Shown piece by piece: positions 936 through 40,657 of a stretch of DNA of 45,932 bases. Under the pieces are notes generated by a model. The model had not been told where the DNA came from. It was given only the letters and a program-made list of their open reading frames with translations, and did no database searches. The first letter of the stretch is position 1; each line of letters begins with the position of its first letter. A program made the position numbers and the translations under genes. This DNA is from Pseudonocardiales bacterium (lineage in GTDB: Bacteria; Actinomycetota; Actinomycetes; Mycobacteriales; Pseudonocardiaceae): assembly GCA_026393175.1 (NCBI GenBank), contig JAPLAT010000607.1, forward strand, positions 1 to 45,932. Reading direction: 5' to 3'.

Positions 936-2342
936 CTACCCGCCGGAGCGGTAGGCCTCCATCGCCCGCAGCCAGACCTCGCTGATCGTCGGGTAGGCCG
1001 GCACCGCGTGCCAGAGCCGCGCCATCGGGACCTCGGCGACGATCGCGACCGTGGCCGCGTGCAGCAGCTCGGCGACGTCCTGGCCGACGAACGTCACGCC
1101 GACGAGCACCTCGCGGGTGGTGTCGACGACCATCCGCATCGCGCCGTCGTAGCCGTCGGCCTGCAGCGACGAGCCGCCGACCGCGATCGGCAGGTCGACG
1201 ACCCGCACGGCGATCCCGGCCTCCCGGGCCTGCGCGGCGGTGCGGCCCACGGAGGCGACCTCGGGGTCGGTGAACACCACCTGCGGCACGGCCCCGTGGT
1301 CGGCCGTGGCGCCGTACTCGCTCCACGGCGCGGGCTCGGCCTGCTCGCCGCGGGCCCGGGCGCCGACGGCCGCGCCGACGATCCGGGCCGCGTACTTGCC
1401 CTGGTGGGTCAGGGGGGCGCGGCCGGTGACGTCGCCTGCGGCGTAGAGCCAGCCGCCGTCGACGCCCAGGACCAGCCCGGAGTCGTCGACCCGCAGGGGC
1501 TCGCCGGGCTCCAGCCCGACGGCCTCGACCCCGACCTCGGCGGTGTTCGGGCGCCGCCCGGTCGCGACGAGCAGCTCGTCGACGACGAGGGTCTCCCCGC
1601 CGACGTGCAGCGCGATCGCGCCGCCGTCGGCCGCGACCGAGTCGAGGTGGGTGTCCAGCCGCAGGTCGACGCCCTCCTCGCGCAGCGCGGCGGCGACCCG
1701 CTCGCCGGCGAAGGGCTCCATGGCGGGCAGCAGCGCCGGGCCGTTCTGCAGCAGCACGACCTCCGACCCGAGCCGCCGGAACGCCAGCGCCAGCTCGCAG
1801 CCGATCACGCCGCCGCCCAGCACGCCCAGGCGCGGCGGCACCTCCTTCGTCGACGTCGCGTCGCGGGAGGACCAGGTGCGGACGGTGTCCAGGCCCGGAA
1901 CGGGCGGCGTCACCGGCGTGCTCCCCGTGCACACGACGACGGCGTGCCGCGCGGTGACCGTCTCGCCGGCGACCTCGACCCGCCGCTCGCCGGTGATCCG
2001 CGCGTGGCCGCGCAGCACCGTGATCCCGGCGCCCTCGGCCCACTCGACCTGGCTCGTGTCGTCCCAGTCGTGGGTGAAGCCGTCGCGCCTGCGCAGCACG
2101 GCCTGCGGGTCGAACTCCGCGGTCGTGCCGGGCAGGCGGCGCAGCGCGGCGGCCGCGTGCCCGGTGCGCAGCAGCGCCTTCGACGGCATGCACGCCCAGT
2201 ACGAGCACTCGCCGCCGAGCAGCTCGGCCTCCACGATCGCGGCCGACAGCCCGGCCCTGGTGGCGTAGTCGGCGGCGTTCTCGCCCACCGCGCCGCCGCC
2301 GATCACGACGACGTCGAACTCGGTCGTCCCGGTCCCGGTCAT
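936..2342 (-). CDS. FAD/NAD(P)-dependent disulfide oxidoreductase (Lpd/mercuric reductase-like)
   Basis: 468-aa pyridine nucleotide-disulfide oxidoreductase. Domains in order are the N-terminal FAD Rossmann motif ('VVIGGGAVGENAADYA'), the redox-active cysteine pair in 'GGECSYWACMPSK' (C-x4-C), a second dinucleotide motif ('LGVLGGGVIGCELALAF'), an FAD 'AAGDV' motif and a C-terminal dimerisation domain. Family members move electrons from NAD(P)H through FAD to a disulfide, quinone or metal. The C-terminal His-x4-Glu of true lipoamide dehydrogenases appears as 'HAVPAYPTISE', so a Lpd-like mechanism is possible. The start was set at the ATG overlapping the upstream stop by 4 bp (ATGA), not at the longer ORF-track start, which would put 169 antisense-like residues in front of the FAD motif. 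Natural substrate unknown. Confidence 0.88.
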   Translation of the reverse strand: MTGTGTTEFDVVVIGGGAVGENAADYATRAGLSAAIVEAELLGGECSYWACMPSKALLRTGHAAAALRRLPGTTAEFDPQAVLRRRDGFTHDWDDTSQVEWAEGAGITVLRGHARITGERRVEVAGETVTARHAVVVCTGSTPVTPPVPGLDTVRTWSSRDATSTKEVPPRLGVLGGGVIGCELALAFRRLGSEVVLLQNGPALLPAMEPFAGERVAAALREEGVDLRLDTHLDSVAADGGAIALHVGGETLVVDELLVATGRRPNTAEVGVEAVGLEPGEPLRVDDSGLVLGVDGGWLYAAGDVTGRAPLTHQGKYAARIVGAAVGARARGEQAEPAPWSEYGATADHGAVPQVVFTDPEVASVGRTAAQAREAGIAVRVVDLPIAVGGSSLQADGYDGAMRMVVDTTREVLVGVTFVGQDVAELLHAATVAIVAEVPMARLWHAVPAYPTISEVWLRAMEAYRSGG

Positions 2343-2995
2343 CCCAGCCCCTTCACGGCCTCGAACAGGTCGGTCGCGCCCGACCGCAGCTCCAGGACCA
2401 GCCCGGCGGAGGTCGGGGTCTCCAGCAGCGCGGCGAGCACGGCGGCGGTGTCGTCGCGGGTGACGTCCCCGCGCTCGACGGGCGGCGGGGCGAGCAGCAC
2501 CTTCCCGGTGCCGGGGTCGTCGGTCAGCCGGCCCGGGCGCAGGATCGTCCACTCCAGGTCGGTGGCGCGCAGCGCGTCCTCGGCGGCCTTCTTCGCCCGC
2601 AGGTAGGCCGCCCACACCTCGTCCGTGCCGGGCGCGGGCGGGTCGTCCACGCCGGTGGAGGAGACGAGCAGGTAGCGGCGCACCCCGGCCAGGTGCGCGG
2701 CGTCGGCGAGCAGGACCGCCGCGGCGCGGTCGACGGTGTCCTTGCGCGCGACGCCGCTGCCCGGCCCGGCGCCCGCGGCGAAGACCACGGCGTCGGCGCC
2801 GCCCAGGTGCCCGGCGACCTCGTCCACGCGCGCCGACTCCAGGTCGCACACCGCGGCCGCGGCCCCGGCGGTCTCCAGGTCGGCGACGTGGTCGGGGTTG
2901 CGCACCAGCCCCAGCACCGTGTCCCCGCGCCCGGCGAGCAGCGCCGCCAGCCGCAGCCCGATCTTCCCGTGTCCACCCGCGATCACCACATGCAC
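2339..2995 (-). CDS. NAD(P)-binding atypical SDR (YwnB-like)
   Basis: 218-aa Rossmann-fold protein starting with the dinucleotide motif 'VVIAGGHGKIGLRLAALL' (GxxGxxG). It continues with 'VVFAAGAG', 'YLLVSSTGVDD' and a Tyr-x3-Lys-like 'YLRAKKAAE' followed by 'WTILRPGRL'. This is the profile of atypical short-chain dehydrogenases (NmrA/YwnB/SDR_a5 group), which bind NAD(P) and may act as reductases or redox sensors. It is the first gene of a two-gene unit and overlaps the downstream flavin oxidoreductase by 4 bp, suggesting translational coupling and a shared redox role. No specific substrate can be assigned. Confidence 0.82.
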   Translation of the reverse strand: MHVVIAGGHGKIGLRLAALLAGRGDTVLGLVRNPDHVADLETAGAAAAVCDLESARVDEVAGHLGGADAVVFAAGAGPGSGVARKDTVDRAAAVLLADAAHLAGVRRYLLVSSTGVDDPPAPGTDEVWAAYLRAKKAAEDALRATDLEWTILRPGRLTDDPGTGKVLLAPPPVERGDVTRDDTAAVLAALLETPTSAGLVLELRSGATDLFEAVKGLG

Positions 2996-3055
2996 GGCGC
3001 AGACGCTAGACCCGCCGGGCCTCCCCCGCCGGATCCTCCACCCGGCCGGCCGGGG

Positions 3056-27523: not shown

Positions 27524-27850
27524 TCAGCGCGGCGTGATCTCGCCCATCGGACCCCAGCCGTCCACCTGCGGCGCGTCCACGTAGATGATCTGCGGCTGGG
27601 CCGACACGAGGTCGGGGGCCTTCTCGACGAACCAGCCGAAGTGCTCGGTCTTCACGTGCGCGCCGCCCGCGTCGGCGTCCCGGAAGCCCTCGACGCAGAG
27701 GAACTCGTTGGGGTCGCCGAGGCCGCGGAACCACTCGAAGTAGACGCAGCCCTCCTCGGCGTTCACCGCGGCCGCGTAGCGCTCGGCCAGCTCCTGCCAC
27801 TCGTCGACCTTGTCGGGTCGCACCGGGAACTTGACGTTGATGACGATCAT
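27524..27850 (-). CDS. Antibiotic-biosynthesis-monooxygenase (ABM) domain protein
   Basis: 108 aa, one ferredoxin-like ABM domain: 'VIINVKFPVRPDKVDEWQELAERYAAAVNAEEGCVYFEWFRG' and 'EHFGWFVEKAP'. Members are cofactor-free quinol oxidases (YgiN-like), heme-degrading enzymes or dimeric modulators. In aromatic catabolic loci they often handle quinols, which fits the surrounding genes, but the substrate is unproven. It lies 100 bp downstream of the cysteine-ligase-like gene and 39 bp upstream of the MOSC gene on the same strand. Confidence 0.82.
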   Translation of the reverse strand: MIVINVKFPVRPDKVDEWQELAERYAAAVNAEEGCVYFEWFRGLGDPNEFLCVEGFRDADAGGAHVKTEHFGWFVEKAPDLVSAQPQIIYVDAPQVDGWGPMGEITPR

Positions 27851-27950: not shown

Positions 27951-29102
27951 CTACTGCAGCGCGAGCGTGCGGATCACCTGGCGGGCCGCGTCCCCGCCCG
28001 CCTCGATCGCGACGCCGACCGCGGCCGGCACGTCGAGGTCGTCGAGCAGCGCGGCCCGCACGCGGTCGACGGCACCGGCCGACCCGGAGCGGATCCCGGC
28101 GGCGACGTAGAGCTCCTCGAGCCGGCCGACGGCGGCGTCGACGTCCTCGGGCCGGTAGTCCCACGGCTCCCGCCAGTCCCGGTGCAGCAGCATCAGCCGG
28201 ACGGCCGCGGCCGGGCGGCCCTGCAGCACGTCGTTGACCAGCACCAGGTTGCCGGTGGACTTCGCCATCTTCGCCCCGGCCAGCCCGACCGTGCCCACCC
28301 GCAGGCCGCGCCGGGCGAACGGCGCGGCGCCGGTGACCGCGGAGGCCATCGCGGACTGGTAGGCGTGGTGCGGGAACGCCAGGTCGGCGCCGCCGGCGAG
28401 GACGTCGACCACGCCGCCGAGGGTCGCCAGCGCCATGGCCGCGCACTCGGCGTGCCAGCCCGGCCGGCCCGGTCCCCACGGGCTGGGCCAGGCCGGGTCG
28501 CCCGGGGCCGAGGGGTGCCAGACGGGCACGTCGAACGGGTCGTCGCGCAGCGGGTCGTCGGGCCGGTCGCCGTACTCGCGGGACAGCGCCAGCGCCGCCG
28601 CCCGGTCCAGCCCGGTCGCGGCCGGCACGCCGGCCCCGCGGAAGAACACGTGCCCGTCGCGCTCGTAGGCCGCGCCCGTGGCGAGCAGGGCCGCCGCGAG
28701 CCGGACGACGTGGGTGACGTGGTGACGGGCGTGCGGCGCGTGTGTCGGCGGCCGGACGTGCAGGTCGGCCATGTCGCGGTCGAACCAGAACTCCTGGGTC
28801 AGCCCGAACTCGTCGTAGCCCCGGCCGCGCTCGGCGGCGGCGCGGGTGAGCACGTCGTCGACGTCGGTGATGTTGCGGGTCACGACCGTGTCGACGCCGG
28901 TCATCCGCACCACGCGGGTGAGGACGTCGGCCCAGACGAACGTGGCGGCGTGGCCGAGGTGGGTGACGTCGTAGGGCGTGATGCCGCAGACGTAGACCCG
29001 CGCGGGGACGGTCAGCGGGAGCGGGGCGCCGCCGAGGGTGAGGAGGCCGGCCGGAGCGGCGCGGGACCCGTCGCGGCCGGTGGATTCGACGGAGGTGCTC
29101 AC
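27951..29102 (-). CDS. MshC/cysteinyl-tRNA-synthetase-like ligase paralogue
   Basis: 383 aa class I synthetase fold. 'VYVCGITPYDVTHLGHAATF' (zinc Cys39, HIGH-like THLGHA), 'NITDVDDVL', 'GPGRPGWHAECAAMAL' (zinc Cys), 'DLAFPHH' (zinc His) and a KMSKS variant 'KMAKSTGNLVLV' are the MshC signature set. MshC adenylates cysteine and joins it to glucosaminyl-inositol in mycothiol synthesis. This protein lacks the conserved N-terminal 'QSW' segment and has no tRNA anticodon-binding domain, so it is not CysS. It may be a second MshC, or ligate cysteine to another amine. It is a member of the catabolic minus-strand run, 55 bp after an alpha/beta hydrolase. GTG start. Confidence 0.8.
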   Translation of the reverse strand: MSTSVESTGRDGSRAAPAGLLTLGGAPLPLTVPARVYVCGITPYDVTHLGHAATFVWADVLTRVVRMTGVDTVVTRNITDVDDVLTRAAAERGRGYDEFGLTQEFWFDRDMADLHVRPPTHAPHARHHVTHVVRLAAALLATGAAYERDGHVFFRGAGVPAATGLDRAAALALSREYGDRPDDPLRDDPFDVPVWHPSAPGDPAWPSPWGPGRPGWHAECAAMALATLGGVVDVLAGGADLAFPHHAYQSAMASAVTGAAPFARRGLRVGTVGLAGAKMAKSTGNLVLVNDVLQGRPAAAVRLMLLHRDWREPWDYRPEDVDAAVGRLEELYVAAGIRSGSAGAVDRVRAALLDDLDVPAAVGVAIEAGGDAARQVIRTLALQ

Positions 29103-29157: not shown

Positions 29158-30393
29158 TCAGGGCGGCGGGGCGAGCCCGTGCCGCGCGCCGAGCCAGTCG
29201 ACGATCACCGCCGCGGCGAGCGCGTTGCCGGTGGGCTCCCCCTCGGCGATCGCGCCCCCGAAGTGCAGCCCGCGGACCGTCGCCGTGGTGAGGTCGGCCG
29301 CCCCGAGCGCCTCGACCATCCGGCGCGAGTCGGCCGGGAACGCGGCCTGGTCGCCGGTGAGCTCGACGAACAGCGTCGGCACGGTCACCCCGGGCGCGCA
29401 GCGGACGAAGTCGGCGTTCGAGCTCAGCCCCGACCACGTGGAGAGCCAGGCCTCGGGCGTGGTGAGCCGGCCGAAGCCGACCTGGCCGTAGTCGATGAGG
29501 TCGGGCCTGCGGCCGAACAGCGACCCGTACGGCCGCTCGCTCGGGTCGATCGACAGGTCGACGGTGCGCGGGTCGGCGTCGGTGCGGAAGACGGTGAGGA
29601 CGCGGGGGGCGATCGCCCGGCGCCGGTCGGCCGCGGCGCCGGTCCGCCGGAACGCCTCCCTGGCCTCGGCCGCACGCGCCAGGTGCGCGCGGGCCACCGC
29701 GTCGATCCGCGCGACGCGGTCGCGCTGGGCGGCGCGGTAGCGCTCCAGGAACGCGGCGGAGTAGGACGAGCTCGCGGGCGGCTCGGCGAACCCGTTGGCC
29801 GGGTCGTACGGGTCGAGATCGGGCACCACCGACAGCGGGTCGGCCTCGTCGGCCACCGACGGGTCGATGCAGGCCAGCAGCAGGCGCCCCTGCCCCGGGT
29901 GCGGGGCCAGGAAGACCGCGCCGTCGGCCGGGGGCAGCACGGCGTCGGCCAGGCCGGTCGGGCGCCCTCCGGGCGTGGTGGCGATGCGCCGCTCCGGGGG
30001 GAGCCCGGCCTGCTCCAGGTAGAACGCGTAGAGCGGGCCACCGCCGGAGTTGCCCAGCACGACGACCGCGTCGAAGCCGCGCTCCCGCAGGAACGCCATC
30101 CCCGCGGCGACGTCGAGCAGCGCCTGCTCGTGCACGAGCGTCAGGTCGTTGTTCACCGACCGCGGGTGCTGGGTCCACACCGCGGTCCCGGCCGCGAGCA
30201 GCACCGGGACCAGCGGGTGGTGCGTGACGTCCTGGCGCGGGTGCATGAGGCAGACCACGGTGGTGGCGCCCGGCACGGTGGCGAGCACGCCGCGCACGGT
30301 GGCCCCGTCGGCCGTGGTGAGCTCGTGCACCGACGTGACCGTCGACACCGGCCGCCCGGCCGCGGTCAGGTACCGTCCCGCGCCCAGCTTCAC
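29158..30393 (-). CDS. Alpha/beta hydrolase (catabolic cluster)
   Basis: 411 aa. The nucleophile elbow is 'VVVLGNSGGGPLYAFYLEQAG'; the acid is likely in 'TLFVELTGDQAAFPADSRRM' and the His in 'TVRGLHFGG'. Length exceeds a minimal hydrolase because of an insertion between about residues 170 and 290 containing an Arg/Ala-rich helix. The N-terminus ('HELTTADGATVRGVLATV') recalls dienelactone-hydrolase-like proteins. GTG start overlaps the 82-aa gene stop by 4 bp. Linked to a VOC dioxygenase-like protein, it may hydrolyse a ring-cleavage product or ester. Confidence 0.8.
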   Translation of the reverse strand: MKLGAGRYLTAAGRPVSTVTSVHELTTADGATVRGVLATVPGATTVVCLMHPRQDVTHHPLVPVLLAAGTAVWTQHPRSVNNDLTLVHEQALLDVAAGMAFLRERGFDAVVVLGNSGGGPLYAFYLEQAGLPPERRIATTPGGRPTGLADAVLPPADGAVFLAPHPGQGRLLLACIDPSVADEADPLSVVPDLDPYDPANGFAEPPASSSYSAAFLERYRAAQRDRVARIDAVARAHLARAAEAREAFRRTGAAADRRRAIAPRVLTVFRTDADPRTVDLSIDPSERPYGSLFGRRPDLIDYGQVGFGRLTTPEAWLSTWSGLSSNADFVRCAPGVTVPTLFVELTGDQAAFPADSRRMVEALGAADLTTATVRGLHFGGAIAEGEPTGNALAAAVIVDWLGARHGLAPPP

Positions 30394-30638
30394 GCGGGCT
30401 CCACCCGCAGCGCGTCCTTGTCGTGCTGGGTGATCCGGCTGTCCCGGGCGACGCCGGCCACCGCGGAGTACCAGACCGCGTGCCGGCAGCCGGTGGCCCG
30501 CCGGTCGATCACGACCGGCCCCACCGCCGAGATCGCGAAGTAGGGGCCGACCCGGTCCACGCTGACCTCGGGGTCGGTCGCCGCGACCTTCGCGAGCGGG
30601 GTGTTCTCGGGGACGTCGAGGACGTAGAGCGTGGTCAC
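30390..30638 (-). CDS. Small conserved-looking protein of unknown function in the VOC-hydrolase operon
   Basis: 82 aa. I do not recognise a family. It is mostly beta-strand forming ('TTLYVLDVPENTPLAKVAA', 'GPYFAISAVGPVVIDRR'), with a central 'ATGCRHAVWYSAVAG'. No signal or membrane helix. GTG at 30638 overlaps the VOC stop and its own stop overlaps the hydrolase start, both by 4 bp. The tight coupling argues it is a real gene and perhaps a small subunit or chaperone of its neighbours. The ORF-track start lies inside the VOC repeat tail and was rejected. Confidence 0.72.
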   Translation of the reverse strand: MTTLYVLDVPENTPLAKVAATDPEVSVDRVGPYFAISAVGPVVIDRRATGCRHAVWYSAVAGVARDSRITQHDKDALRVEPA

Positions 30639-31327
30639 CGGGACTCCGCCTGCGCCGGCTCCCCCTGCGCCGGCTCCCACTGCGCCGGCTCCCACTGCGC
30701 CGACTCCCACTGCGCCGACTCCCACTGCGCCGCCCGCTCGACGATCAGCTCGGCCTTGCGGGCCAGCAGCTTCCCGAACGTCGGCCCCGGCTCCGCGACG
30801 ACGTCGAGGAGGGCGTCGATCGTCAGGTTCGCGTCGAGGTCCTCCTGCGGCGTGACCGGGCGCATCGCGCGCGTGAGCTCGACCATGTAGCCGTTGGGGT
30901 CGTGGGTGTAGATCGACTCGATGGTCTCGTGCTTGATCTGCATCTCCACCGGCCAGGCGCTGTCGTCGAGGCGGCGGCGGTACTCCAGCAGGTCGGCCTC
31001 GTCCGCGACGTGGATGGCGAGGTGCCGGCTGCGCACGAAGAACTCGGGGACGCCCGCGCCGAACCCGGCGTAGACGTCGCCGCGCGCGTGCTCGTGCACG
31101 GGCTCCAGGCCGAAGTAGTAGAAGAACGCGATCCGGTCCCCGTTGCCGATGTCGAAGAAGAAGTGGACGAAGTCCGGGTGGTCCTCCGGGCCCCAGCCTG
31201 CGGCGCAGATCGAGTGCACCACCGGGAAACCGAGCACGTCCCGGTAGAAGCGCACCGTGCCGGCCGGGTCGAACGTCGGGAACGCGACGTGGTCGACACC
31301 CTGCACGCGGTGGTCCAGCTCGGTCAT
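30635..31327 (-). CDS. VOC-family (glyoxalase/extradiol dioxygenase-like) protein with pentapeptide-repeat tail
   Basis: 230 aa. Two vicinal-oxygen-chelate modules: 'GVDHVAFPTFDPAGTVRFYRDVLGF' at the N-terminus and 'SRHLAIHVADEADLLEYRRRL' with 'DPNGYMVELTR' later. These give a His-His-Glu metal triad as in extradiol dioxygenases and glyoxalases. After about residue 195 the chain ends in tandem AQWES/AQWEP repeats. ATG at 31327 was chosen over GTG 31333 because GGGAGG abuts the GTG but lies 6 bp before the ATG. First gene of a coupled trio with its own operator-bearing promoter. Ring-cleavage role inferred from fold and neighbours. Confidence 0.83.
   Translation of the reverse strand: MTELDHRVQGVDHVAFPTFDPAGTVRFYRDVLGFPVVHSICAAGWGPEDHPDFVHFFFDIGNGDRIAFFYYFGLEPVHEHARGDVYAGFGAGVPEFFVRSRHLAIHVADEADLLEYRRRLDDSAWPVEMQIKHETIESIYTHDPNGYMVELTRAMRPVTPQEDLDANLTIDALLDVVAEPGPTFGKLLARKAELIVERAAQWESAQWESAQWEPAQWEPAQGEPAQAESR
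30646..30735 (-). repeat. Six imperfect 15-bp tandem repeats (VOC C-terminal tail)
   Basis: Units based on 'cccactgcgccg(a/g)ct', six copies; the central copies are identical or differ at one base. Read on the minus strand they encode (AQWE[S/P])n. The 15-bp period keeps the frame when copies are gained or lost, so copy number may vary without inactivating the gene. Confidence 0.9.
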
Positions 31328-31361
31328 GGTCACCCTCCCTCGGCTCCTGCGGACACCTGCG

Positions 31362-31413
31362 ACGCTACGCGCCGTCTGACGGAGGAGTCAACAGTTCGAC
31401 GTGTGTGTCGAAC
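31362..31413 (-). promoter_or_regulatory. Promoter and perfect palindromic operator upstream of the VOC gene
   Basis: On the minus strand, TTGACT (31391-31386) and TAGCGT (31367-31362) are spaced 18 bp, a good sigma-70-type promoter. Immediately upstream, GTTCGAC-N6-GTCGAAC (31394-31413) is a perfect 7-bp inverted repeat ending 2 bp before the TetR stop codon. The position next to the -35 box and the adjacent tetR gene suggest control by that TetR protein. Confidence 0.6.
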
Positions 31414-31414
31414 C

Positions 31415-32116
31415 TCAGAGGTCGAGGATCCGTTCCAGGTGGTCGATGTCCTGGCGGAGCACGGCCAGGGCCGCGGCCGGGCTGCCGTCGAGCGTGCGGT
31501 CGTCGCCGCGCTGGAGGGCGCCCAGGGCCATGTCCGAGAGCTGCGCGGCCACCGACTCGACGCCGTCGCGGCCGTCCGGGTGGAACCACCAGGCCACCCA
31601 GTTGCACATCCCGAGCACACCCAGCGCCGCCACCCGCGAGTCGACGGGCCGGAAGCGCCCGGCCCGCACACCCTCCTCGATCACCCCGGCCACGGTCTTG
31701 AGCACGGCGCGGCGGCTCTCGTCGTAGGCGGCGCCCAGCTCGGCCGGGAGCTCGGCCTCCGAGCGGATGAGCAGGCGGAACCGGGCGGGCTGGGTCGCCC
31801 GCCGCACGACGATGATCGAGACGATGCCGCGCAGCTTGTCGACGGCGTCGAGGCCCGGCTGGGCGACGAGCGCGGTGAGCTCGCCCAGCGGGCCGTCGGT
31901 GACCTCCGTGACCAGCTTCGCGAGCAGCTCGTCCTTGCTCTTGACGTAGTAGTAGAGCGCGGGCCGGGTGATGCCCAGCGCGTCGGCGATGTCCTGCAGG
32001 CTGGTGCCGGCGAAGCCGCGCTCGGCGAAGAGCCGCGTGGCGTGCTCGTACATCTCGTTCTCGACGAGCTCCCGGCGCGCGGTGCCGGCCCGGGGCGGCT
32101 TCCCGCTGCTGGTCAT
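31415..32116 (-). CDS. TetR/AcrR-family transcriptional regulator
   Basis: 233 aa. The N-terminal helix-turn-helix is 'ATRLFAERGFAGTSLQDIADALGITRPALYYYVKSKDELL' (about residues 22-62), followed by an all-helical ligand domain typical of catabolic TetR regulators ('VRRATQPARFRLLIRSEAEL', 'LGMCNWVAWWFHPDG'). It lies 2 bp after the maleate isomerase gene in the same operon, so it probably controls its own synthesis. Candidate operators are the palindrome just downstream and the double repeat before the flavoprotein gene. The ATG at 32116 was chosen; the longer ORF is antisense-like. Confidence 0.9.
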   Translation of the reverse strand: MTSSGKPPRAGTARRELVENEMYEHATRLFAERGFAGTSLQDIADALGITRPALYYYVKSKDELLAKLVTEVTDGPLGELTALVAQPGLDAVDKLRGIVSIIVVRRATQPARFRLLIRSEAELPAELGAAYDESRRAVLKTVAGVIEEGVRAGRFRPVDSRVAALGVLGMCNWVAWWFHPDGRDGVESVAAQLSDMALGALQRGDDRTLDGSPAAALAVLRQDIDHLERILDL

Positions 32117-32118
32117 GG

Positions 32119-32886
32119 TCACGATCGTAGAGGGGCCACCGGGGCGGGCCGGTCGGCCGCGAGCAGCGCCCCCGCGCCGGGCAGCACCGTCGGCAGCCCG
32201 AGGTGGCGCAGCAGGGCGAAGGCGCCTGCCGTGGCGGCGGACAGGACCGGGACGCCGAACTCGTCCTCGGCCGGGGCGACCAGCGCCAGCGACGGCATCT
32301 GCACGCAGGCGGAGACGACGAGCGCGTCGGCCCCGGTGAGGTCGAGCCCGCGGGCGGCGCCCAGGACGCGCTCGCCGGGGATGCACCCGACCGCGGCGTT
32401 GTCGCCGACCTCCAGCGCCGCCCAGTCGACGACGTCGATCCCCTCGGCGCGCAGGTAGCCGACCACCTGCTCGGCCAGCGGGCGCAGGTAGGGCGTGACG
32501 AGGGCGATCCGGCGGGCGCCGAGCGCGGCGACGGCCTCGACGAGCGCCCCCGCGCTGGACAGCACGGCCGGGCGCTGCCCGCGCCGGTCCAGCTGGGCCG
32601 TCACCGCCTCCTCGGTGCGCCGGTGCTCCCCCGGCCCCTGCGCCATGAGGGCGACGAGGCAGGCGTAGAGCAGGGCGTCGACCCCGGCGTCGGCGAGCTC
32701 GTCGACGCAGCGCTCGCGCTGGGCGTTCATCGCCCGCAGCTCCTCGGGCGAGACCCGGTGCATCCGCATCCGGCTGGAGTGGAAGGAGAACCCCGCGTCG
32801 CGGTGCCGGGCGAGCAGGGCGGGCACCTCCGTCTCCACCGTGACGTTGGAGCTGGGGACGACGAGACCGATCCGGTGCGTGGTCAC
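32119..32886 (-). CDS. maiA: Maleate cis-trans isomerase
   Basis: 255 aa Asp/Glu-racemase-superfamily enzyme converting maleate to fumarate. Counting from the GTG start, the catalytic residues fall at the positions I recall for Nocardia maleate isomerase: N14 ('PSSNVTVETE'), C76 ('LLYACLVALMAQG'), Y133 ('VTPYLRPL'), N163 ('GDNAAVGCI') and C194 ('VSACVQMPS'). This supports a true maleate isomerase rather than arylmalonate decarboxylase. The GTG overlaps the ligase stop by 4 bp. Its presence implies a pathway releasing maleate, for instance cleavage of a maleyl intermediate, with fumarate entering the TCA cycle. Confidence 0.87.
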   Translation of the reverse strand: MTTHRIGLVVPSSNVTVETEVPALLARHRDAGFSFHSSRMRMHRVSPEELRAMNAQRERCVDELADAGVDALLYACLVALMAQGPGEHRRTEEAVTAQLDRRGQRPAVLSSAGALVEAVAALGARRIALVTPYLRPLAEQVVGYLRAEGIDVVDWAALEVGDNAAVGCIPGERVLGAARGLDLTGADALVVSACVQMPSLALVAPAEDEFGVPVLSAATAGAFALLRHLGLPTVLPGAGALLAADRPAPVAPLRS

Positions 32887-34544
32887 GCGGGACCTCCTGC
32901 GGTGACGGCGAGCTTGCCGATGATGTCGGCCTGCAGGCGCTTCTTGTCCAGCTTCCCGACGAGGGTGCGCGGCATCGCCTCGAGGTGCTCCAGGCGTTCG
33001 GGCCACTTGAACTTCGCCACCTGGAGGGCGGCGAAGTGCTCCCGGACCTCGGCCAGGTCCAGCGGCGCGCCGCGGACGACGACGTAGGCGCAGGTCCGCT
33101 CGCCCAGCCGGGGGTCGGGCATGGCGACGACCGCCGCGTCGACGACGCGCGGGTGCCGCAGCAGCAGCGTCTCGACCTCCTCGGCGTTGATCTTCTCGCC
33201 GCCGCGGTTGATGAGGTCCTTGATCCGGCCCTCGATGCCGACGCAGCGCAGGCCGTCGATCGTGCGGACGCGGGCGAGGTCGCCGGTGCGGTAGAAGCCG
33301 TCGGCGGTGAACGCGCGGGCGTTGTGCTCGGCGGCGTCGAAGTAGCCGGGCAGCGTGTAGGGCCCCCGGCAGCACAGCTCCCCGGTGGTGCCGTCGGGCA
33401 CCTCGTCCTCGGTGCCCGGCTCCAGCACCCGGATCTCGTCCAGCGGCGAGAGCGGGGTGCCGACGGTCGTCGCGCGCGCCTCCCGCGGCGCGCCCGGCCG
33501 GGTGGTGAGGAACAGCCCCTCGCCCATGCCGAACAGCTGGCCGACCCACAGGCCGCGGCGCTCCAGGCCGGCGAACAGCGCCTCGGGCACGGTGGCCCCG
33601 GAGAGCACCACCTGCGTCAGCGCCGCGGCGGCCGCGTCGAACGCCGGGTGGTCGACGGCGCCGTAGTGCCCGTGGCCGAGCAGCACGTGCGTCGCGGCCG
33701 CGCGGGCCATCAGCGGCAGCGACACCGCGAGGTCGGCGGTGCCCAGCACCAGGCAGGCCCCCGCGGAGTGCGGGGCGTGCACCGCGCAGACGATCCCCGC
33801 GTTGTGGACGACCGGGATCAGGTGCGCGACCCGGGTGTCCGGGGTCCAGCCCCAGGACCGGGCGTACTCGGCGGCGTTGTACCAGTACTCCGCGTGCCGG
33901 CGCGGGATCGCCTTGGGCACCCCGGTCGTGCCCCCGGAGAGCTGCAGGACCGCGAGCCCGTCGGGGTCCAGCGCGCGCTGGATCCCCTCGACGAGGGCGC
34001 GGGCCGCCGCCGGGTCGGTGTCCGCGCCGAGCGCCCCGAGCGGGACGCCCCGGCCGTCGGCCTCCCCCAGCACGAGCACGTGCCGCAGGGTCGGGTGGTC
34101 GCGGCCCTGCTCCACGGCGAAGCCGACGAGGTCGAACCCGGGGGTGCCTGCCTCCACGAGGTGGGCGACGGCCCCGACCCGCCTGCTGATCGCGGCGATC
34201 TCGTGGCCGCGGTGCGCGGCCAGCGTGCAGACCGGCACCAGCCCGGCCTTGAGCACGCCGTACCAGGCGACGACCGCGCCGAGCCGGTTGGTGACCTGGA
34301 ACAGCACGGGGTCGCCGGGCGCCAGGCCGAGCCCGGCCAGGCCGGCGGCCAGCGCGTCGGTGCGGCGGTCGAGCTCGCGGTAGGTCAGCCGCCCGTCGAG
34401 CGCGACGACGGCCGGGCGGTCCGGGTGCGCGAGCGCCACCGCGTGGAACTCCTCGGCGAGCGTCCGCGTCCCCCACAGGCCCGCGGCGCGGTAGCGGCGC
34501 ACGGCGTCGGGCGGGTACCCGACGAGCCGCCCGTCCGCGCTCAT
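32883..34544 (-). CDS. Aryl-acid adenylating enzyme (DhbE/SdgA-like AMP ligase)
   Basis: 553-aa ANL-superfamily enzyme activating a carboxylic acid with ATP. Core motifs: 'LQLSGGTTGVPKAIPRRH' (A3), 'YRTGDLARV' (A7), 'GRIKDLINRGGEKINAEEVE' (A8) and the catalytic A10 Lys in 'TLVGKLDKKRL'. 'HNAGIVCAVHAPHSAGA' aligns with the aryl-acid pocket of DhbE/EntE and salicylyl-AMP ligases, where the Asn after His contacts the substrate ring. It is coupled to a salicylyl-CoA-5-hydroxylase-like flavoprotein by an ATGA overlap, so I infer activation of a hydroxybenzoate-type acid, either to AMP ester or directly to CoA. Not part of a siderophore cluster here. Confidence 0.85.
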   Translation of the reverse strand: MSADGRLVGYPPDAVRRYRAAGLWGTRTLAEEFHAVALAHPDRPAVVALDGRLTYRELDRRTDALAAGLAGLGLAPGDPVLFQVTNRLGAVVAWYGVLKAGLVPVCTLAAHRGHEIAAISRRVGAVAHLVEAGTPGFDLVGFAVEQGRDHPTLRHVLVLGEADGRGVPLGALGADTDPAAARALVEGIQRALDPDGLAVLQLSGGTTGVPKAIPRRHAEYWYNAAEYARSWGWTPDTRVAHLIPVVHNAGIVCAVHAPHSAGACLVLGTADLAVSLPLMARAAATHVLLGHGHYGAVDHPAFDAAAAALTQVVLSGATVPEALFAGLERRGLWVGQLFGMGEGLFLTTRPGAPREARATTVGTPLSPLDEIRVLEPGTEDEVPDGTTGELCCRGPYTLPGYFDAAEHNARAFTADGFYRTGDLARVRTIDGLRCVGIEGRIKDLINRGGEKINAEEVETLLLRHPRVVDAAVVAMPDPRLGERTCAYVVVRGAPLDLAEVREHFAALQVAKFKWPERLEHLEAMPRTLVGKLDKKRLQADIIGKLAVTAGGPA

Positions 34545-36079
34545 GCGGCGCCCTCCGTCCAGGTCACGAGGTCGGCGCGGCCGCTCAGGAGCCCCGCGGC
34601 CAGGTCGGCGCGCAGCGCGGCCGGGCCCTCCACGACGACGGTGCCGCCCACCTCGCCGCGCAGCCGCTCGGCCAGGTCGAGGCGGGTCAGCGTGGCGGCC
34701 CGGTCGGCGGGCCCGACGACCCGGAACCCGGCGGACCCGGCGGCGCGGTGCCGGCGGGCGGCCGCGACGACGGCGTCCCCTTCCGCGCTCCACGGGTCGT
34801 CGACCACGTCGTCGACGACGGTCAGCGCGGGGTCGCCGGGCGGGACCACCCGGCTCGGCAGGTCCAGGCCCCCGCCGCGCAGCGGCCGGTCGAGGACCCA
34901 CCCGACCACGTCCGGCGGGGGCGGCACCGGGTCCTGCCCGGCGAACTGCCCCAGCGCCGCGGCGACGACGTCGGGCGCGGTCACGGCGAACCGGTCGAGC
35001 GGCACGTTCCCGGCCCGGGTCATGTAGGCGACCATGAGCTGCTCGACCGGCAGCCCGGTGCGCGCGGGGAACGACTCCCACCACAGCCTGCTGCGCCGCG
35101 CGAGCTCCTGCAGCCGCTCGACGGCGGGGCGGCGGACGGCCTCGTAGCGGGCGAACGCCGCGGCCGCGCCGTCCTCCTCGGCGAGCGCCTCGGCCAGCGC
35201 GATCGCGTCCTCCATCGCCAGCTTGGTGCCCGAGCCGATGGAGAAGTGCGCGGTGTGGGCGGCGTCGCCGAGCAGGACGACCCGCCCGGCGGACCAGCGG
35301 GCGCAGCGCACGGTGCGGAAGCGCTGCCATCGGGTGCGGTTGCCGATCAGCGGGCGCCCGCCGAGCTCCGCGGCGAAGACCCCCTCCAGGTACCGCAGCG
35401 ACGCGGTGTCGGTGGCGTCGGGCGGGGTGGCGTCGGTGGTGGCGTCGAAGACGGCGGCGCGCCAGGTCCGCTCGTCGGTCTCGACGAGGAACGTGCTGCG
35501 CCCGCCCGAGTAGGGGTAGGCGTGGGTGACGAACGTGCCGTGCGGCGTCGTGACGGGCGCGAAGACGGCGTCGGGGAGCGTGAACTCCGCGCCGCACCAC
35601 AGGAACAGCCCGCGCCCGACCTCGACGCTCCCGCCGAAGTCGCCGGCCTCGCGGGTGGCGCTGCCGACGCCGTCCGCGGCCACCACCACGTCGGCGTCGA
35701 GGGCCTCGGCGGTGCGCCGGGACCCGAAGTCCAGCCGCACGCCCGCCTTCTCGGCGTGCCGCTGCAGGATCGCCAGGAGCTCCGTGCGGGCGACGCCGAC
35801 GAGGCGGTCGCTGCGCACGCGCGCGGTCCGCCCGCCCACCCGCATCGTCATGTCGTGGCGGCTGCCTGCGGTCACGATGTCGCGCAGGGTGTCGGGGTCC
35901 GCGGCCTCCAGCCGGCGCTGCGTGCCCGCGGCGAGCCCGACGCCGAAGCCGAACGTCGTGTCCGGGTCGTCCTGCTCGTGCACGACCACGTCGCAGGCGG
36001 GCCGGGCCAGCTTGAGCAGGCGGGCCGCGTACAGCCCGCCCGGCCCTCCGCCGAGCACCGCGATGCGGCGTGGGTGCAT
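34541..36079 (-). CDS. FAD-dependent monooxygenase, salicylyl-CoA 5-hydroxylase-like, with short C-terminal remnant domain
   Basis: 512 aa. FAD motif 'IAVLGGGPGGLYAARLL', 'VVVAADGVGSATRE' (DG motif) and 'LLGDAAHTAHFSIGSGTKLAMEDA' (GD motif). The last is characteristic of salicylyl-CoA 5-hydroxylase/aminobenzoyl-CoA monooxygenase flavoproteins. After about residue 405, 100 residues remain, some resembling the end of the OYE-type barrel found in the longer bifunctional homologues ('LAERLRGEVGGTVVVEG', 'AGLLSGRADLV'). ATG 36079 was chosen for its GGAGG 7 bp upstream; the ORF track adds 55 spurious residues. First gene of the ligase-isomerase-tetR operon. Likely hydroxylates an aryl-CoA at the ring. 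Confidence 0.85.
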   Translation of the reverse strand: MHPRRIAVLGGGPGGLYAARLLKLARPACDVVVHEQDDPDTTFGFGVGLAAGTQRRLEAADPDTLRDIVTAGSRHDMTMRVGGRTARVRSDRLVGVARTELLAILQRHAEKAGVRLDFGSRRTAEALDADVVVAADGVGSATREAGDFGGSVEVGRGLFLWCGAEFTLPDAVFAPVTTPHGTFVTHAYPYSGGRSTFLVETDERTWRAAVFDATTDATPPDATDTASLRYLEGVFAAELGGRPLIGNRTRWQRFRTVRCARWSAGRVVLLGDAAHTAHFSIGSGTKLAMEDAIALAEALAEEDGAAAAFARYEAVRRPAVERLQELARRSRLWWESFPARTGLPVEQLMVAYMTRAGNVPLDRFAVTAPDVVAAALGQFAGQDPVPPPPDVVGWVLDRPLRGGGLDLPSRVVPPGDPALTVVDDVVDDPWSAEGDAVVAAARRHRAAGSAGFRVVGPADRAATLTRLDLAERLRGEVGGTVVVEGPAALRADLAAGLLSGRADLVTWTEGAA

Positions 36080-36242: not shown

Positions 36243-38357
36243 ATGGCCTATGTCATCGGCGTCGACGTGGGCGGCACGTTCACCGATGCCGTCCTCGACG
36301 ACGACGCGGGCACCGTCGTCGCCGCGAAGTCGCCGTCCACGCCCCCGGACTACTCCCAGGGCGTCCTGGACGTGCTGGAACTGCTCGCCGAGCAGCTCGG
36401 GAAGCCCGTCGGGGAGATGCTGGCGCAGACCCACCACATCGCGCACGGCACCACCTCCTCGCTCAACGCGCTGGTCACGGGCAACGTCCCGCCGGTCGGC
36501 TTCCTCACCACCCGCGGCCACCGCGACTCGATCTTCATCATGAACGTCGAGGGCCGGTACCTGGGGCGCTCGCCGCACGAGCTCCAGCACGTGCTGGGCC
36601 AGGCCAAGGACCACGGCCTGCTGCCCAAGCGGCACGCGCTGGAGGTCACCGAGCGGATCGACCGCGACGGCACGGTCGTCGTCGCCCTCGACGAGGACGG
36701 GGCCCGCGCCGCGATCCGCGCCCTCCTCGACGACGGCGTCCGCGCGATCGCGGTCTCGCTGCTGTGGTCGTTCCGCAACCCGGTGCACGAGCGGCGGCTG
36801 CGCGAGCTCGTCGCCGAGCAGGACCCGGACCTCTACGTCGCGCTGTCCAGCGAGGTCAGCCCCCGGATCCGGGAGTTCTCCCGCAACGCGACGACGATCA
36901 TGAGCACGCAGATCGGCCCCGGCCTGCGCGACTACCTGGGCACGCTCGAGGGCGCCCTGCGCGAGCGCGGGCTGACCGGCCCGCTGCTGGTCATGCAGAG
37001 CAACGGCGGCGCGGTGGCGGCGGCCGAGGCGCCCGCCGCGGCGATCAGCACGGTCGGCTCGGTGCTGACCGGCGGCGTCGTCGGCGCGGTGCAGCTCGGC
37101 CGCCAGCTGGGCCACCGCAACATCATCTCCACCGACGTCGGCGGCACGACGTTCCTCGCCGGGCTGGTCGTCGACGGGGAGCCGGTGCGCGACACCACCA
37201 CGGTGATCAACCACCACCCGATCAACGTCCCCACCCTGCGGGTCGACGCCATCGGCTCCGGCGGCGGCGCGATCGCCTGGCTCGACGCGGGCGGCAACCT
37301 GCGGGTCGGCCCGCGCAGCGCGCAGGCCGTGCCCGGGCCCGCCTGCTACGGCCAGGGCGGCACGGAGCCGACCAACACCGACGCCAACCTGGTGCTGGGC
37401 ATCCTCCCCGAGCGGGGGCTGCTCGGCGGGCGCAAGCCGCTCTCGGCCGAGCTCGCCCGGCAGGCCATCGACATCCGGATCGCCAAGCCGCTGGGGCTGT
37501 CGGTCGAGGAGGCCGCGGCGGCGATCCACGCCGTGCAGAACGCCCAGACCGGCGACCTGCTGCGCAAGACCGTCGTCGAGGCGGGCCACGACCCGCGCGG
37601 CTTCGTCGTCTACGCCTTCGGCGGGGCCGGTCCCGCGCACTGCGCGCGGTACGCCGCCGAGATCGGCGTCGACGAGGTCGTGGTGCCGCTCGGCCCGGTC
37701 GCCTCGGCGTTCTCGGCGTTCGGGCTCGCGTCCTCGGACATCGTCCTGGCCGCGGAGCTGTCGGACCCGACGTTCGTCCCCTTCGACCCGGCCCGCGCCG
37801 AGCGCAACTTCGCCGAGCTGGAACGGCGCGTGCGCGAGGGCCTGGAGCGCCAGGGCGTCGCGTTCGCCGACGTCGCGCTGCACCGCGAGGTCGACATGCG
37901 CTACACGATGCAGCTCGCCGAGGTCACCACGCCCGTCGCCGCCGGGGCGCTGGACGCGGCCGCGATCGAGGCGGCCGCGGCCGGGTTCGAGGAGCGCTAC
38001 GCCGCGCTCTACGGCGCCGAAGCCGGGTTCCGCGAGGCCGGGATCCAGGCGATCACGTTCCGGGTCCGCGGGGTCGGCGTGCTGCCGTTCTCCCCGGCCC
38101 TGCCCGAGGTCCCGGCGGCCGCGTCGGGCGACCCGGCCGACGCGCGGGCGGGCCGGCGCCCGGTCTGCCTCGACGCGGCCACCGGCTACGTCGACACCCC
38201 GGTCTACGACTACCTGCGGCTGCGCTCCGGGCACGTCGTCCCCGGGCCGGCGATCGTCGAGGTGCCGACGACGACCGTCGTGGTCCCGGCCGGGCACACC
38301 GGCACCGTCGACCATCTCGGCAACCTGACCATCCGCACCGCTGGGAGCCCGTCGTGA
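36243..38357 (+). CDS. HyuA-type hydantoinase/oxoprolinase/carboxylase ATPase subunit
   Basis: 704 aa. The N-terminal actin-like ATPase signature 'VIGVDVGGTFTDAVLD' (Hydantoinase_A_N) is followed by 'HHIAHGTTSSLNAL' and the Hydantoinase_A domain ('TDVGGTTFLAGLVVDGEPV', 'AIGSGGGAIAWLDAGG', 'YAFGGAGPAHCARYAAEIG'). The family includes N-methylhydantoinases, 5-oxoprolinase, acetone carboxylase and acetophenone carboxylase. The HyuA/HyuB pairing, the zinc-ribbon tail on HyuB and the aromatic neighbours favour an acetophenone-carboxylase-like ATP-dependent reaction, but this is inference. RBS GAAGGAG precedes ATG 36243. Coupled to hyuB by GTGA overlap. Confidence 0.88.
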   Translation: MAYVIGVDVGGTFTDAVLDDDAGTVVAAKSPSTPPDYSQGVLDVLELLAEQLGKPVGEMLAQTHHIAHGTTSSLNALVTGNVPPVGFLTTRGHRDSIFIMNVEGRYLGRSPHELQHVLGQAKDHGLLPKRHALEVTERIDRDGTVVVALDEDGARAAIRALLDDGVRAIAVSLLWSFRNPVHERRLRELVAEQDPDLYVALSSEVSPRIREFSRNATTIMSTQIGPGLRDYLGTLEGALRERGLTGPLLVMQSNGGAVAAAEAPAAAISTVGSVLTGGVVGAVQLGRQLGHRNIISTDVGGTTFLAGLVVDGEPVRDTTTVINHHPINVPTLRVDAIGSGGGAIAWLDAGGNLRVGPRSAQAVPGPACYGQGGTEPTNTDANLVLGILPERGLLGGRKPLSAELARQAIDIRIAKPLGLSVEEAAAAIHAVQNAQTGDLLRKTVVEAGHDPRGFVVYAFGGAGPAHCARYAAEIGVDEVVVPLGPVASAFSAFGLASSDIVLAAELSDPTFVPFDPARAERNFAELERRVREGLERQGVAFADVALHREVDMRYTMQLAEVTTPVAAGALDAAAIEAAAAGFEERYAALYGAEAGFREAGIQAITFRVRGVGVLPFSPALPEVPAAASGDPADARAGRRPVCLDAATGYVDTPVYDYLRLRSGHVVPGPAIVEVPTTTVVVPAGHTGTVDHLGNLTIRTAGSPS

Positions 38358-40657
38358 GCATGCCCATCCCCGGCTCCGAGATCTTCTCGAGCCGTCCCGT
38401 CGACCCGGACGAGCTGGCGCGCTCGCTGCCCTCGACGCTGGCCGCGCACACCGTCACCCAGGAGCAGGTCGACGCCCTGGACCCGCTCACCTACGAGGTC
38501 GTGCGGCACCGGCTGTGGTCGGTCACCGACGAGATGGGCGAGGCGCTCAAGCGCATGTCCGGCTCGCCGATCGTCACCGACGCGAACGACTTCGACTTCG
38601 CGATCTCCGACGAGCTGGGCCAGGAGGTGCAGGTCGGGCTGTACAACACGATGCTCGTCGGCGCCGTCGACCTGGCCATCTACTGGACGCTGCGGCACCG
38701 GGCGGAGAACCCGGGCATCGCCGAGGGCGACATGTTCCTCACTAACGACCCGTGGGTCGGCGGCGGGCTGCACCAGAACGACACGATGGTCTTCCAGCCC
38801 GTCTTCCACGAGGGGAAGCTGTTCGCCTGGACCAGCGCGATCTGCCACGAGCCGGACCTGGGCGGCGTCGGGCTGGGGTCGTTCTCCCCCGCCGCGCAGG
38901 ACGTGTTCTCCGAGTCGCTGCCGACGCCGCCGGTCAAGGTGGTGCGCGACTTCCGGCTGCAGCGCGACGTCGCCGACCTGTGGGTGCGGCGCTCCCGCGT
39001 GCCGATGCTGGTGGGGCTGGACCTGCGGGCGAAGGTCGGCGCGAACAACGTCGGCCGCGAGCGCATCCTCGCGCTCATCGCCCAGTACGGCGCCGACACC
39101 GTCAAGGCCGTGATGAAGCGGATGATGGGCGACGCCGAGTCCCGGCTGCGCGGCAAGCTCGGCGGGCTGCCCGACGGGTCGTGGACCGCGACGGGCTACC
39201 AGGACCAGTCCCACGAGGGCGACCGCGGCCTGCACAAGATCACGGTGACCACCACGAAGACCGGTGACCACCTCACGTTCGACTTCACCGACACCGACCC
39301 GCAGGCCGGCGTCGTGAACTGCACCTACGCGGGGATGCGCGGCGGGGTCATGCTGGCGCTGCTGCCGATCCTGGCCGGGGACATCCCGTGGTCGGCGGGC
39401 GGGCTGATGCGCTGCTTCGACCTGGTCACCGAGGAGGGCACGCTCAACAACGCGACCTACCCGGCCGCGGTCGGCCGCGGTCCGATCGGGCCCGCGTGGC
39501 TGACCGGCAGCCTGGTCGCCGAGTGCCTGTCGCAGATGCTCGACCGCGACCTGGAGCTCGGCAAGAACGTGCAGGCCACCTGCTGCGGCACCTGGGACAC
39601 CGCCGTCATCGCCGGGCTGGACCAGCGCGGTGAGCAGCCCGTGCCGTTCCTCAACATCATCATGGAGCCGATGGCCGGCGGCTACGGCGCCCGCCCGCAC
39701 GCCGACGGCATCGACACCGGCGGGCTGTTCTGCATCCCGATGGGCCGCATCCCCGACGTCGAGATGACCGAGTTCCTCTACCCGGTGCTCACGCTGTGGC
39801 GGCGCGAGGAACCCGACTCCGGCGGGCCGGGGCGGCACCGCGGCGGCGTCGGCGCCTCCGTGGCGATCACCCCGCACGGCACGTCGCTGCCGATGGGGCT
39901 GGTGCTGGCGTCGGCGGGCAAGGCCGTCTCGCAGAACGCTGGGCTGTCCGGCGGGCACCCCGGCAACACCGGGCTCGACGTCGTCGCCCGGCGCAGCCGC
40001 GTCGCGGAGATGCTCGCCGCGGGCCGGATGCCGACGTCGCTGGCCGAGGTCAGCGACGAGCTGGAGCCCGGCCAGAACTACGCGTCGAGCTACCTGGCCC
40101 CCGGCGAGGTGCTGGCGATGACCTGGCAGGGCGGCGGCGGGTACGGCGACCCGCTCACCCGGGACCCGGCCGCCGTCGCGCGCGACCTGGCCGAGGAGAA
40201 GGTCACCGCCGACGCGGCCCGGTCCGTCTACGGCGTCGTGCTCTCCGGCGGCGGCGTCGACGAGGACGCGACGGCCGCCGAGCGGGCCCGCCTGCGCGAC
40301 GTCCGCCGGGACCGCTCGGCCGCGCCGGCGGCGGTCGGCACCGTCGACGTCGGGACGGGGCGCCGCCTCGACGACAACCTCGTGGAGGTGCCCACCGCCG
40401 ACGGCCCCGTGGTCGCCTGCCGGCACTGCGGGGCGTCGCTGGGCACGGCGGGCTCGCTCGCGCTGGCCGTCCACGAGGGGCCGCCGACCGACGCCGGGCC
40501 GCAGATCATCGCGACCGCGGCCGACTACGTCGACGCACCGGTGGTGTTCCGGCAGTACTGCTGCCCGGGCTGCTGGACCGCGGTCTGGTCGGCCGTCGTC
40601 CCCGCCGACCACGTCGACTCGACGGGCGGCCCCGCGCGGGTGGCCGTGGCGGGCTGA
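38354..40657 (+). CDS. HyuB-type hydantoinase/carboxylase subunit with C-terminal Cys4 zinc-ribbon-like segment
   Basis: 767 aa. The Hydantoinase_B domain (about residues 30-630) shows 'YEVVRHRLWSVTDEMGEALKR', 'GDMFLTNDPWVGGGLHQNDTM', 'LRGGVGASV'-type glycine loops around 'GRHRGGVGASVAITPHG' and 'WQGGGGYGDPL'. After a linker, the last 120 residues carry 'VACRHCGASLG' and 'YCCPGCWTAVW', two Cys pairs as in the small zinc-containing subunit of acetophenone/acetone carboxylases. I read this as subunit fusion. Start GTG overlaps hyuA; ATG 38360 is an alternative. It forms the catalytic partner of the HyuA ATPase and is followed by a perfect hairpin. Confidence 0.87.
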   Translation: MSMPIPGSEIFSSRPVDPDELARSLPSTLAAHTVTQEQVDALDPLTYEVVRHRLWSVTDEMGEALKRMSGSPIVTDANDFDFAISDELGQEVQVGLYNTMLVGAVDLAIYWTLRHRAENPGIAEGDMFLTNDPWVGGGLHQNDTMVFQPVFHEGKLFAWTSAICHEPDLGGVGLGSFSPAAQDVFSESLPTPPVKVVRDFRLQRDVADLWVRRSRVPMLVGLDLRAKVGANNVGRERILALIAQYGADTVKAVMKRMMGDAESRLRGKLGGLPDGSWTATGYQDQSHEGDRGLHKITVTTTKTGDHLTFDFTDTDPQAGVVNCTYAGMRGGVMLALLPILAGDIPWSAGGLMRCFDLVTEEGTLNNATYPAAVGRGPIGPAWLTGSLVAECLSQMLDRDLELGKNVQATCCGTWDTAVIAGLDQRGEQPVPFLNIIMEPMAGGYGARPHADGIDTGGLFCIPMGRIPDVEMTEFLYPVLTLWRREEPDSGGPGRHRGGVGASVAITPHGTSLPMGLVLASAGKAVSQNAGLSGGHPGNTGLDVVARRSRVAEMLAAGRMPTSLAEVSDELEPGQNYASSYLAPGEVLAMTWQGGGGYGDPLTRDPAAVARDLAEEKVTADAARSVYGVVLSGGGVDEDATAAERARLRDVRRDRSAAPAAVGTVDVGTGRRLDDNLVEVPTADGPVVACRHCGASLGTAGSLALAVHEGPPTDAGPQIIATAADYVDAPVVFRQYCCPGCWTAVWSAVVPADHVDSTGGPARVAVAG

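Follow-up and report, generated by a model that had tools for sequence, protein, structure and literature searches.

Actinomycetes use mycothiol and lack glutathione. The two described members of the catalytic family treated here are MshC, the GlcN-Ins:cysteine ligase, and cysteinyl-tRNA synthetase (CysRS), and no report of an MshC paralogue or a second mshC was found in the open-access papers searched. The roles of the zinc, cysteine, and adenylate residues of MshC are described in PMC9736012, as is the helix P88-R95, which becomes ordered upon ligand binding. CARS of Escherichia coli additionally converts cysteine to cysteine persulfide (CysSSH), using lysine-bound PLP (PMC7563103). A proven sulfane-sulfur circuit of Streptomyces coelicolor consists of a CsoR-like sensor, a two-domain persulfide dioxygenase (PDO), a rhodanese, and a sulfite transporter (PMC7533328).

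The window, a stretch of 45,932 nucleotides from a Pseudonocardiales bacterium, encodes an MshC/CysRS-like ligase, hereafter T, at 27951..29102 on the minus strand (383 aa, GTG start). In a Pfam profile search, the product matched PF01406 (tRNA-synt_1e) with 234 bits, but it scored under the curated cut-offs of both described families, with 274.1 bits against TIGR03447 (MshC; cut-off 485.1) and 229.5 bits against TIGR00435 (cysS/CysRS; cut-off 340). The AlphaFold model (pLDDT 91.7) had the MshC structures 8hfn and 3c8z as its top PDB fold matches (TM 0.85-0.86). Only ∼100 residues follow the KMAKS motif and the anticodon-binding C-terminal domain is absent, T proteins being 375-407 aa long vs. 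452-491 aa for CysRS. Because orthologues with 70-80% identity occur in many congeners, the reading frame is not a chance one, and synteny of part of the window's left side with a congener locus (L046; 54-84% identity) makes contamination an unlikely explanation for the gene. The locus gave no match in PADLOC.

Within the source genome (712 contigs, 90% complete), three family relatives were found: an mshC on contig C668, with 676.3 bits against TIGR03447; a cysS on contig C417, with 422 bits in the cysS model, both over their cut-offs; and the window gene, whose protein shares 38% identity with the MshC of this genome across the aligned region. The search for another mshC that the earlier note had proposed thus returned a full-scoring one, and this true mshC adjoins PAC2 and metH in the classical locus, as it does in four other genomes of the order. 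T lies outside that conserved locus (DUF3090, SCO1664 family, PAC2, and metH), bearing out the placement of the gene away from the usual mshC neighborhood and next to an ABM-domain gene, which occupies 27524-27850 downstream of T. The 411-aa gene upstream (29158-30393), on the same strand with a 55-bp gap, had been called an alpha/beta hydrolase; it carries a GNSGGG nucleophile-elbow-like motif and has no Pfam match even at E 0.01, so the label is plausible but unconfirmed. A catabolic run on the minus strand follows (30390-36079), encoding an FAD monooxygenase, an AMP-binding ligase, an Amdase/maleate-isomerase-like protein, a TetR regulator, a VOC dioxygenase-like protein, and an 82-aa protein that, like the 411-aa one, matches no Pfam family; divergent from it is a hydantoinase/oxoprolinase A and B pair on the plus strand (36243-40657). 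None of the neighboring ABM, MOSC, GNAT, 411-aa, 82-aa, and VOC genes turned up again at 86 other T loci; the catabolic neighbors are therefore incidental, and the idea that the product serves the adjacent pathway gains no support.

Phylogenetic analysis (59 rows, LG+C20) revealed a T clade with 100/100 support, present in 100% of bootstrap trees, beside an equally supported MshC clade (100/100). T was sister to MshC with a bootstrap of 80 and an SH-aLRT of 91, the latter rising to 95 in a 97-row tree, whereas CysRS was far removed and parted from T by 100/100 branches. The phylogeny of MshC paralogues, another check that had been proposed, thus places T in a clade of its own, and by this sequence evidence T is a third, undescribed clade of cysteine-activating enzymes beside MshC and CysRS. 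Its stem is long (1.08 changes per column vs. 0.49 for MshC), as would be expected if T changed function and MshC kept its own. The Pseudonocardia T genes fell in three places in the tree and their joint grouping was rejected (p-AU 5e-8), which implicates either horizontal transfer or an early duplication followed by loss. Short MshC-like proteins of other actinobacterial classes (group O, L140-L149; 371-410 aa, ∼265-279 bits to the window protein) branched outside T and MshC together; their genomes also contain MshA- and MshB-like genes, mostly below cut-off, and these proteins may be the MshC of those classes or another ligase.

Residue by residue (numbered from M1 as residue 1, all motifs on the minus strand), the cysteine-activation site is kept. 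The segment CGITPYD (residues 39-45; 28968..28988) supplies the zinc ligand C39, the alpha-amino contacts G40 and T42, and the lid residue Tyr44, equivalent to C43, G44, T46, and Y48 of MshC, and C39, G40, T42, P43, and Y44 are 100% conserved in an alignment of 102 T sequences. The class I HIGH motif is THLGHA (residues 47-52; 28947..28964), in which H51 corresponds to MshC H55 and H48, G50, and H51 are again 100% conserved across T sequences. The second zinc ligand, C220 in GWHAEC (residues 215-220; 28443..28460), corresponds to MshC C231 in a column that is 100% Cys in T, MshC, and CysRS. In the KMSKS loop, KMAKS (residues 278-282; 28257..28271), K281 and S282 are kept, and A280 is present in 97% of T vs. 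Ser in 100% of MshC and CysRS. Across the 102 sequences, the equivalents of C43, C231, H256, T46, T83, H55, and K289 of Mycobacterium smegmatis MshC are invariant or nearly so. The full MshC-type signature reported earlier (C39-GITPYD, T47-HLGHA, G215-WHAEC, and K278-MAKS) is accordingly present, and the N-terminal QSW segment of MshC is absent, also as reported; the Trp column of this segment is Trp in 96% of MshC and a gap in 91% of T.

Other conserved positions are altered. In NITDVDDVL (residues 77-85; 28848..28874), T79 keeps MshC T83, but V84 stands for MshC P88 in the column where the lid helix starts, which is Val in 97% of T, Pro in 100% of MshC, and Lys in 93% of CysRS. In PHHA (residues 244-247; 28362..28373), the zinc ligand H245 matches MshC H256, but A247 replaces Glu, the column being Ala in 98% of T and Glu in 100% of MshC and CysRS and 90% of group O. 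HRDWREPWDY (residues 307-316; 28155..28184) stands where MshC, CysRS, and group O have HYR; here W310 is present in 87% of T vs. Tyr in 96-100% of MshC and CysRS, and the adjacent His and Arg are gone (HYR to xWx). W57 and a C-terminal GGxAAR are further T-specific features. The acceptor side of T was assigned by alignment to MshC, and on that basis the changes from PHHE to PHHA and from HYR to xWx, with that of the lid helix, suggest that T keeps cysteine activation with a rebuilt acceptor side for a different acceptor. The earlier proposal that this is a second ligase, with another cysteinyl amide as its product, thus gains support from the phylogeny and the residue changes, short of proof.

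To the limit of the genomes sampled, T is confined to Actinomycetes, where it is scattered. It was recovered from 33 of 40 genomes of the genus, Pseudonocardia (58-80% identity; two as fragments), and the MshC and CysRS proteins of the same 40 genomes were only ∼41 and ∼37% identical to the window protein, leaving a clean score gap. Carriers amounted to 42 of 151 genomes in the family, 44 of 250 in the order (47 listed, three with MshC only), and 31 of 297 in the class (34 listed, three with MshC only), and include Pseudonocardia, Geodermatophilus, Blastococcus, Nocardioides, Marmoricola, Actinomadura, Nonomuraea, Amorphoplanes, Nakamurella, and Trebonia. No genome sampled outside the class contained T, the best matches there being 41-47% identical, and none was found in the plasmid records searched. 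An MshC over the cut-off was also present in 65 of the 67 T-bearing genomes tested. One genome (G194; completeness estimate 100%) encodes mshA, mshB, T, and two cysS and no mshC, and was considered as a case of T replacing MshC; DUF3090, the SCO1664 family, and PAC2 are missing there too, which an assembly gap or the deletion of a block would explain equally well, and the genome was excluded from the evidence. One Pseudonocardia genome (G027) has three T copies (L047, L063, and L064), each ∼62-64% identical to the window protein, and the T gene at L079 (G169:C14:56282-57376) contains one in-frame TGA, making it a probable pseudogene or sequencing error.

No conserved operon partner at a fixed position was found for T; it is a stand-alone gene with lineage-specific neighbors, and it took the pooling of 158 loci by T lineage to bring out a persulfide signal. 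The families recurring near T in these loci were PDO-rhodanese (MBL-Rhd), rhodanese (one variant carries a YgaP-like membrane part), TauE, and CsoR-like repressors. Pfam and NCBIfam were used to check representative family names; the PDO assignment rests on the pair of MBL and rhodanese domains, since none of the NCBIfam PDO models matched over its cut-off. By our reading of their sequences, the CsoR-like proteins near T lack the His of the copper CsoR site. Enrichment was assessed by an ORF-level search around 174 unique T genes, which fall into 35 lineages at 70% identity, seeded with the four recurrent families plus sulfide:quinone reductase (SQR), TusA, DsrE, CoA-disulfide reductase (CoADR), and DUF302. 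The density of seed-family genes per Mb fell from 67 at 0-1.5 kb from T to 37 at 1.5-3 kb, 17 at 3-6 kb, and 2.2 at 6-9 kb, compared to 2.5 in a control of 20 random 20-kb regions from T-bearing genomes (one match in 400 kb), a small control even with the 455 kb of far flank. One or more such genes lay within 6 kb of T at 27 of 174 loci, in 14 of the 35 lineages. The seed families were picked after their recurrence had been seen, although they proved to belong to one pathway. With the six seed-supplying loci taken out of the test, 21 of 168 loci remained vs. ∼4 expected (binomial P 2e-10, a value that ignores kinship, related T loci not being independent). At the other 147 of 174 loci, the window included, no seed-family gene occurred within 6 kb, some flanks being shorter, so the persulfide link is recurrent and not obligatory; within the whole window, the only match to the seed families was a distant FAD-reductase similarity at 936-3005.

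Individual loci illustrate the association. At L171, a CoADR-Rhd-TusA-DsrE fusion is followed 126 bp on by T and then by genes for a CsoR-like protein, DUF302, thioredoxin, a rhodanese, PDO-Rhd, and TauE; L307 reads DsrE2, TusA, T, thioredoxin, CsoR-like, PDO, and SQR; and L091 has a tight same-strand run of thioredoxin, CsoR-like, and T, with TauE and rhodanese convergent. PDO directly adjoins T on the same strand, at 83-119 bp, in L309, L329, and L336. At 11 Pseudonocardia loci belonging to another T subclade, T has a mycothione reductase gene (710 bits, cut-off 636) at a distance of 0.6-3.7 kb. In one Pseudonocardia T subclade (L049-L062), a gene for a small LapA/DUF1049-like membrane protein ends no more than a few bp from where T starts, and an ElaA-like GNAT gene and mycothione reductase lie just past it. 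TauE and T share one uninterrupted 702-aa frame at L185:7929-10037 (G501, a 10-Mb genome of the class) and also at L135, which could be a fusion or two in-frame adjacent genes and was counted as adjacency only.

Taken together, these observations are consistent with T being a cysteine ligase that makes a non-mycothiol thiol for sulfane-sulfur handling, a reading to which we assign a probability of roughly 0.5. T would bind cysteine through the zinc site, form cysteinyl-AMP from ATP, as the complete conservation of that site implies, and pass the cysteinyl group to an amine acceptor. That acceptor would be neither tRNA-Cys nor, probably, GlcN-Ins, to judge from the missing anticodon-binding domain, the remodeled acceptor side, the long stem, and the coexistence with MshC. 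The product would probably be a small thiol containing cysteine, which would carry or accept sulfane sulfur during the disposal of sulfide and persulfide, acting beside PDO, rhodanese, SQR, and TauE under CsoR-like control; this sulfur role is drawn from gene context in relatives and not from the window itself. A more specific form, proposed tentatively and with less confidence, is that T makes a hitherto undescribed low-molecular-weight cysteinyl thiol of Actinomycetes, distinct from mycothiol, that is the native sulfur acceptor of SQR and, as its persulfide, the substrate of the actinobacterial PDO. As Actinomycetes are without glutathione, and the S. coelicolor PDO was assayed in vitro with glutathione persulfide (PMC7533328), T, recurrent in PDO operons, is a concrete candidate enzyme for making the thiol behind the native PDO persulfide. 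Its persulfide setting suggests a dedicated sulfur-transfer thiol in some Actinomycetes and, if the reading is true, T would bring the CysRS/MshC catalytic family a third function. In automatic annotation, T would probably be labeled mshC or cysS, which could mislead metabolic models.

Several other readings were weighed against a thiol ligase of this kind. That T is simply an ordinary mshC relocated into a catabolic operon, as the earlier note had allowed, is suggested by its position on the same strand 55 bp after the 411-aa gene, but direct flanks never recur near T, and the full-scoring canonical mshC elsewhere in the genome together with the position of T outside the MshC clade refute it; the window gene is not a relocated mshC. 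The strongest rival, unlikely in our estimation, has T as another GlcN-Ins:cysteine ligase besides MshC, a stress-type isozyme that boosts mycothiol output when persulfide or sulfide builds up. The sister relationship to MshC, the identical zinc and cysteine site, and the mycothione reductase genes near T in 11 Pseudonocardia loci all fit such an isozyme, but T has replaced residues that are invariant in MshC and that CysRS shares (Glu to Ala at 247, HYR to xWx), it has a different lid helix and no N-terminal segment, its stem is twice that of MshC, and the one complete genome seemingly with T in place of MshC (G194) probably reflects an assembly gap.

It is improbable that T itself makes cysteine persulfide in the manner of CARS and so feeds the persulfide pathway. 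The persulfide gene context and the retention of both KMSKS lysines agree with this, but of the PLP lysines K73, K76, K266, and K269, K73 is Val in 97% of T and K76 is variable, and T keeps a full adenylation site that persulfide synthesis does not need. We give a similarly low probability to cysteinylation of a macromolecule, whether a carrier protein or a tRNA, the latter in the way that CysRS* of Desulfobacterales acts on a SelC-type tRNA. CysRS-family paralogues that charge tRNA without an anticodon-binding domain do exist (PMC9437257), but T groups with the small-molecule ligase MshC and not with CysRS, is shorter than MshC, and has no carrier or dedicated gene recurring beside it.

Compared to the known systems, the thiol ligase proposed here combines likenesses and differences. 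The four families of the S. coelicolor circuit, with PDO-rhodanese in the same two-domain form, recur beside T in relatives; the available part of that account mentions no MshC-type ligase (PMC7533328), and T in the window has no such circuit nearby. MshC (TIGR03447; PDB 3C8Z, 8HFM-8HFO) shares with T the fold, the zinc, cysteine, and adenylate site, and the lack of an anticodon-binding domain, whereas T falls below the MshC cut-off, is without the N-terminal segment, has PHHA, xWx, and Val for P88, and occupies another genomic location. CysRS (TIGR00435) shares the catalytic domain and zinc-based cysteine recognition, but T, at 383 aa, is without the anticodon-binding domain and falls on the MshC side of the tree. 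CysRS* of Desulfobacterales is, like T, a family member without that domain, in its case a CysRS paralogue, but it acts on a SelC-type tRNA (PMC9437257), whereas T belongs to the MshC branch.
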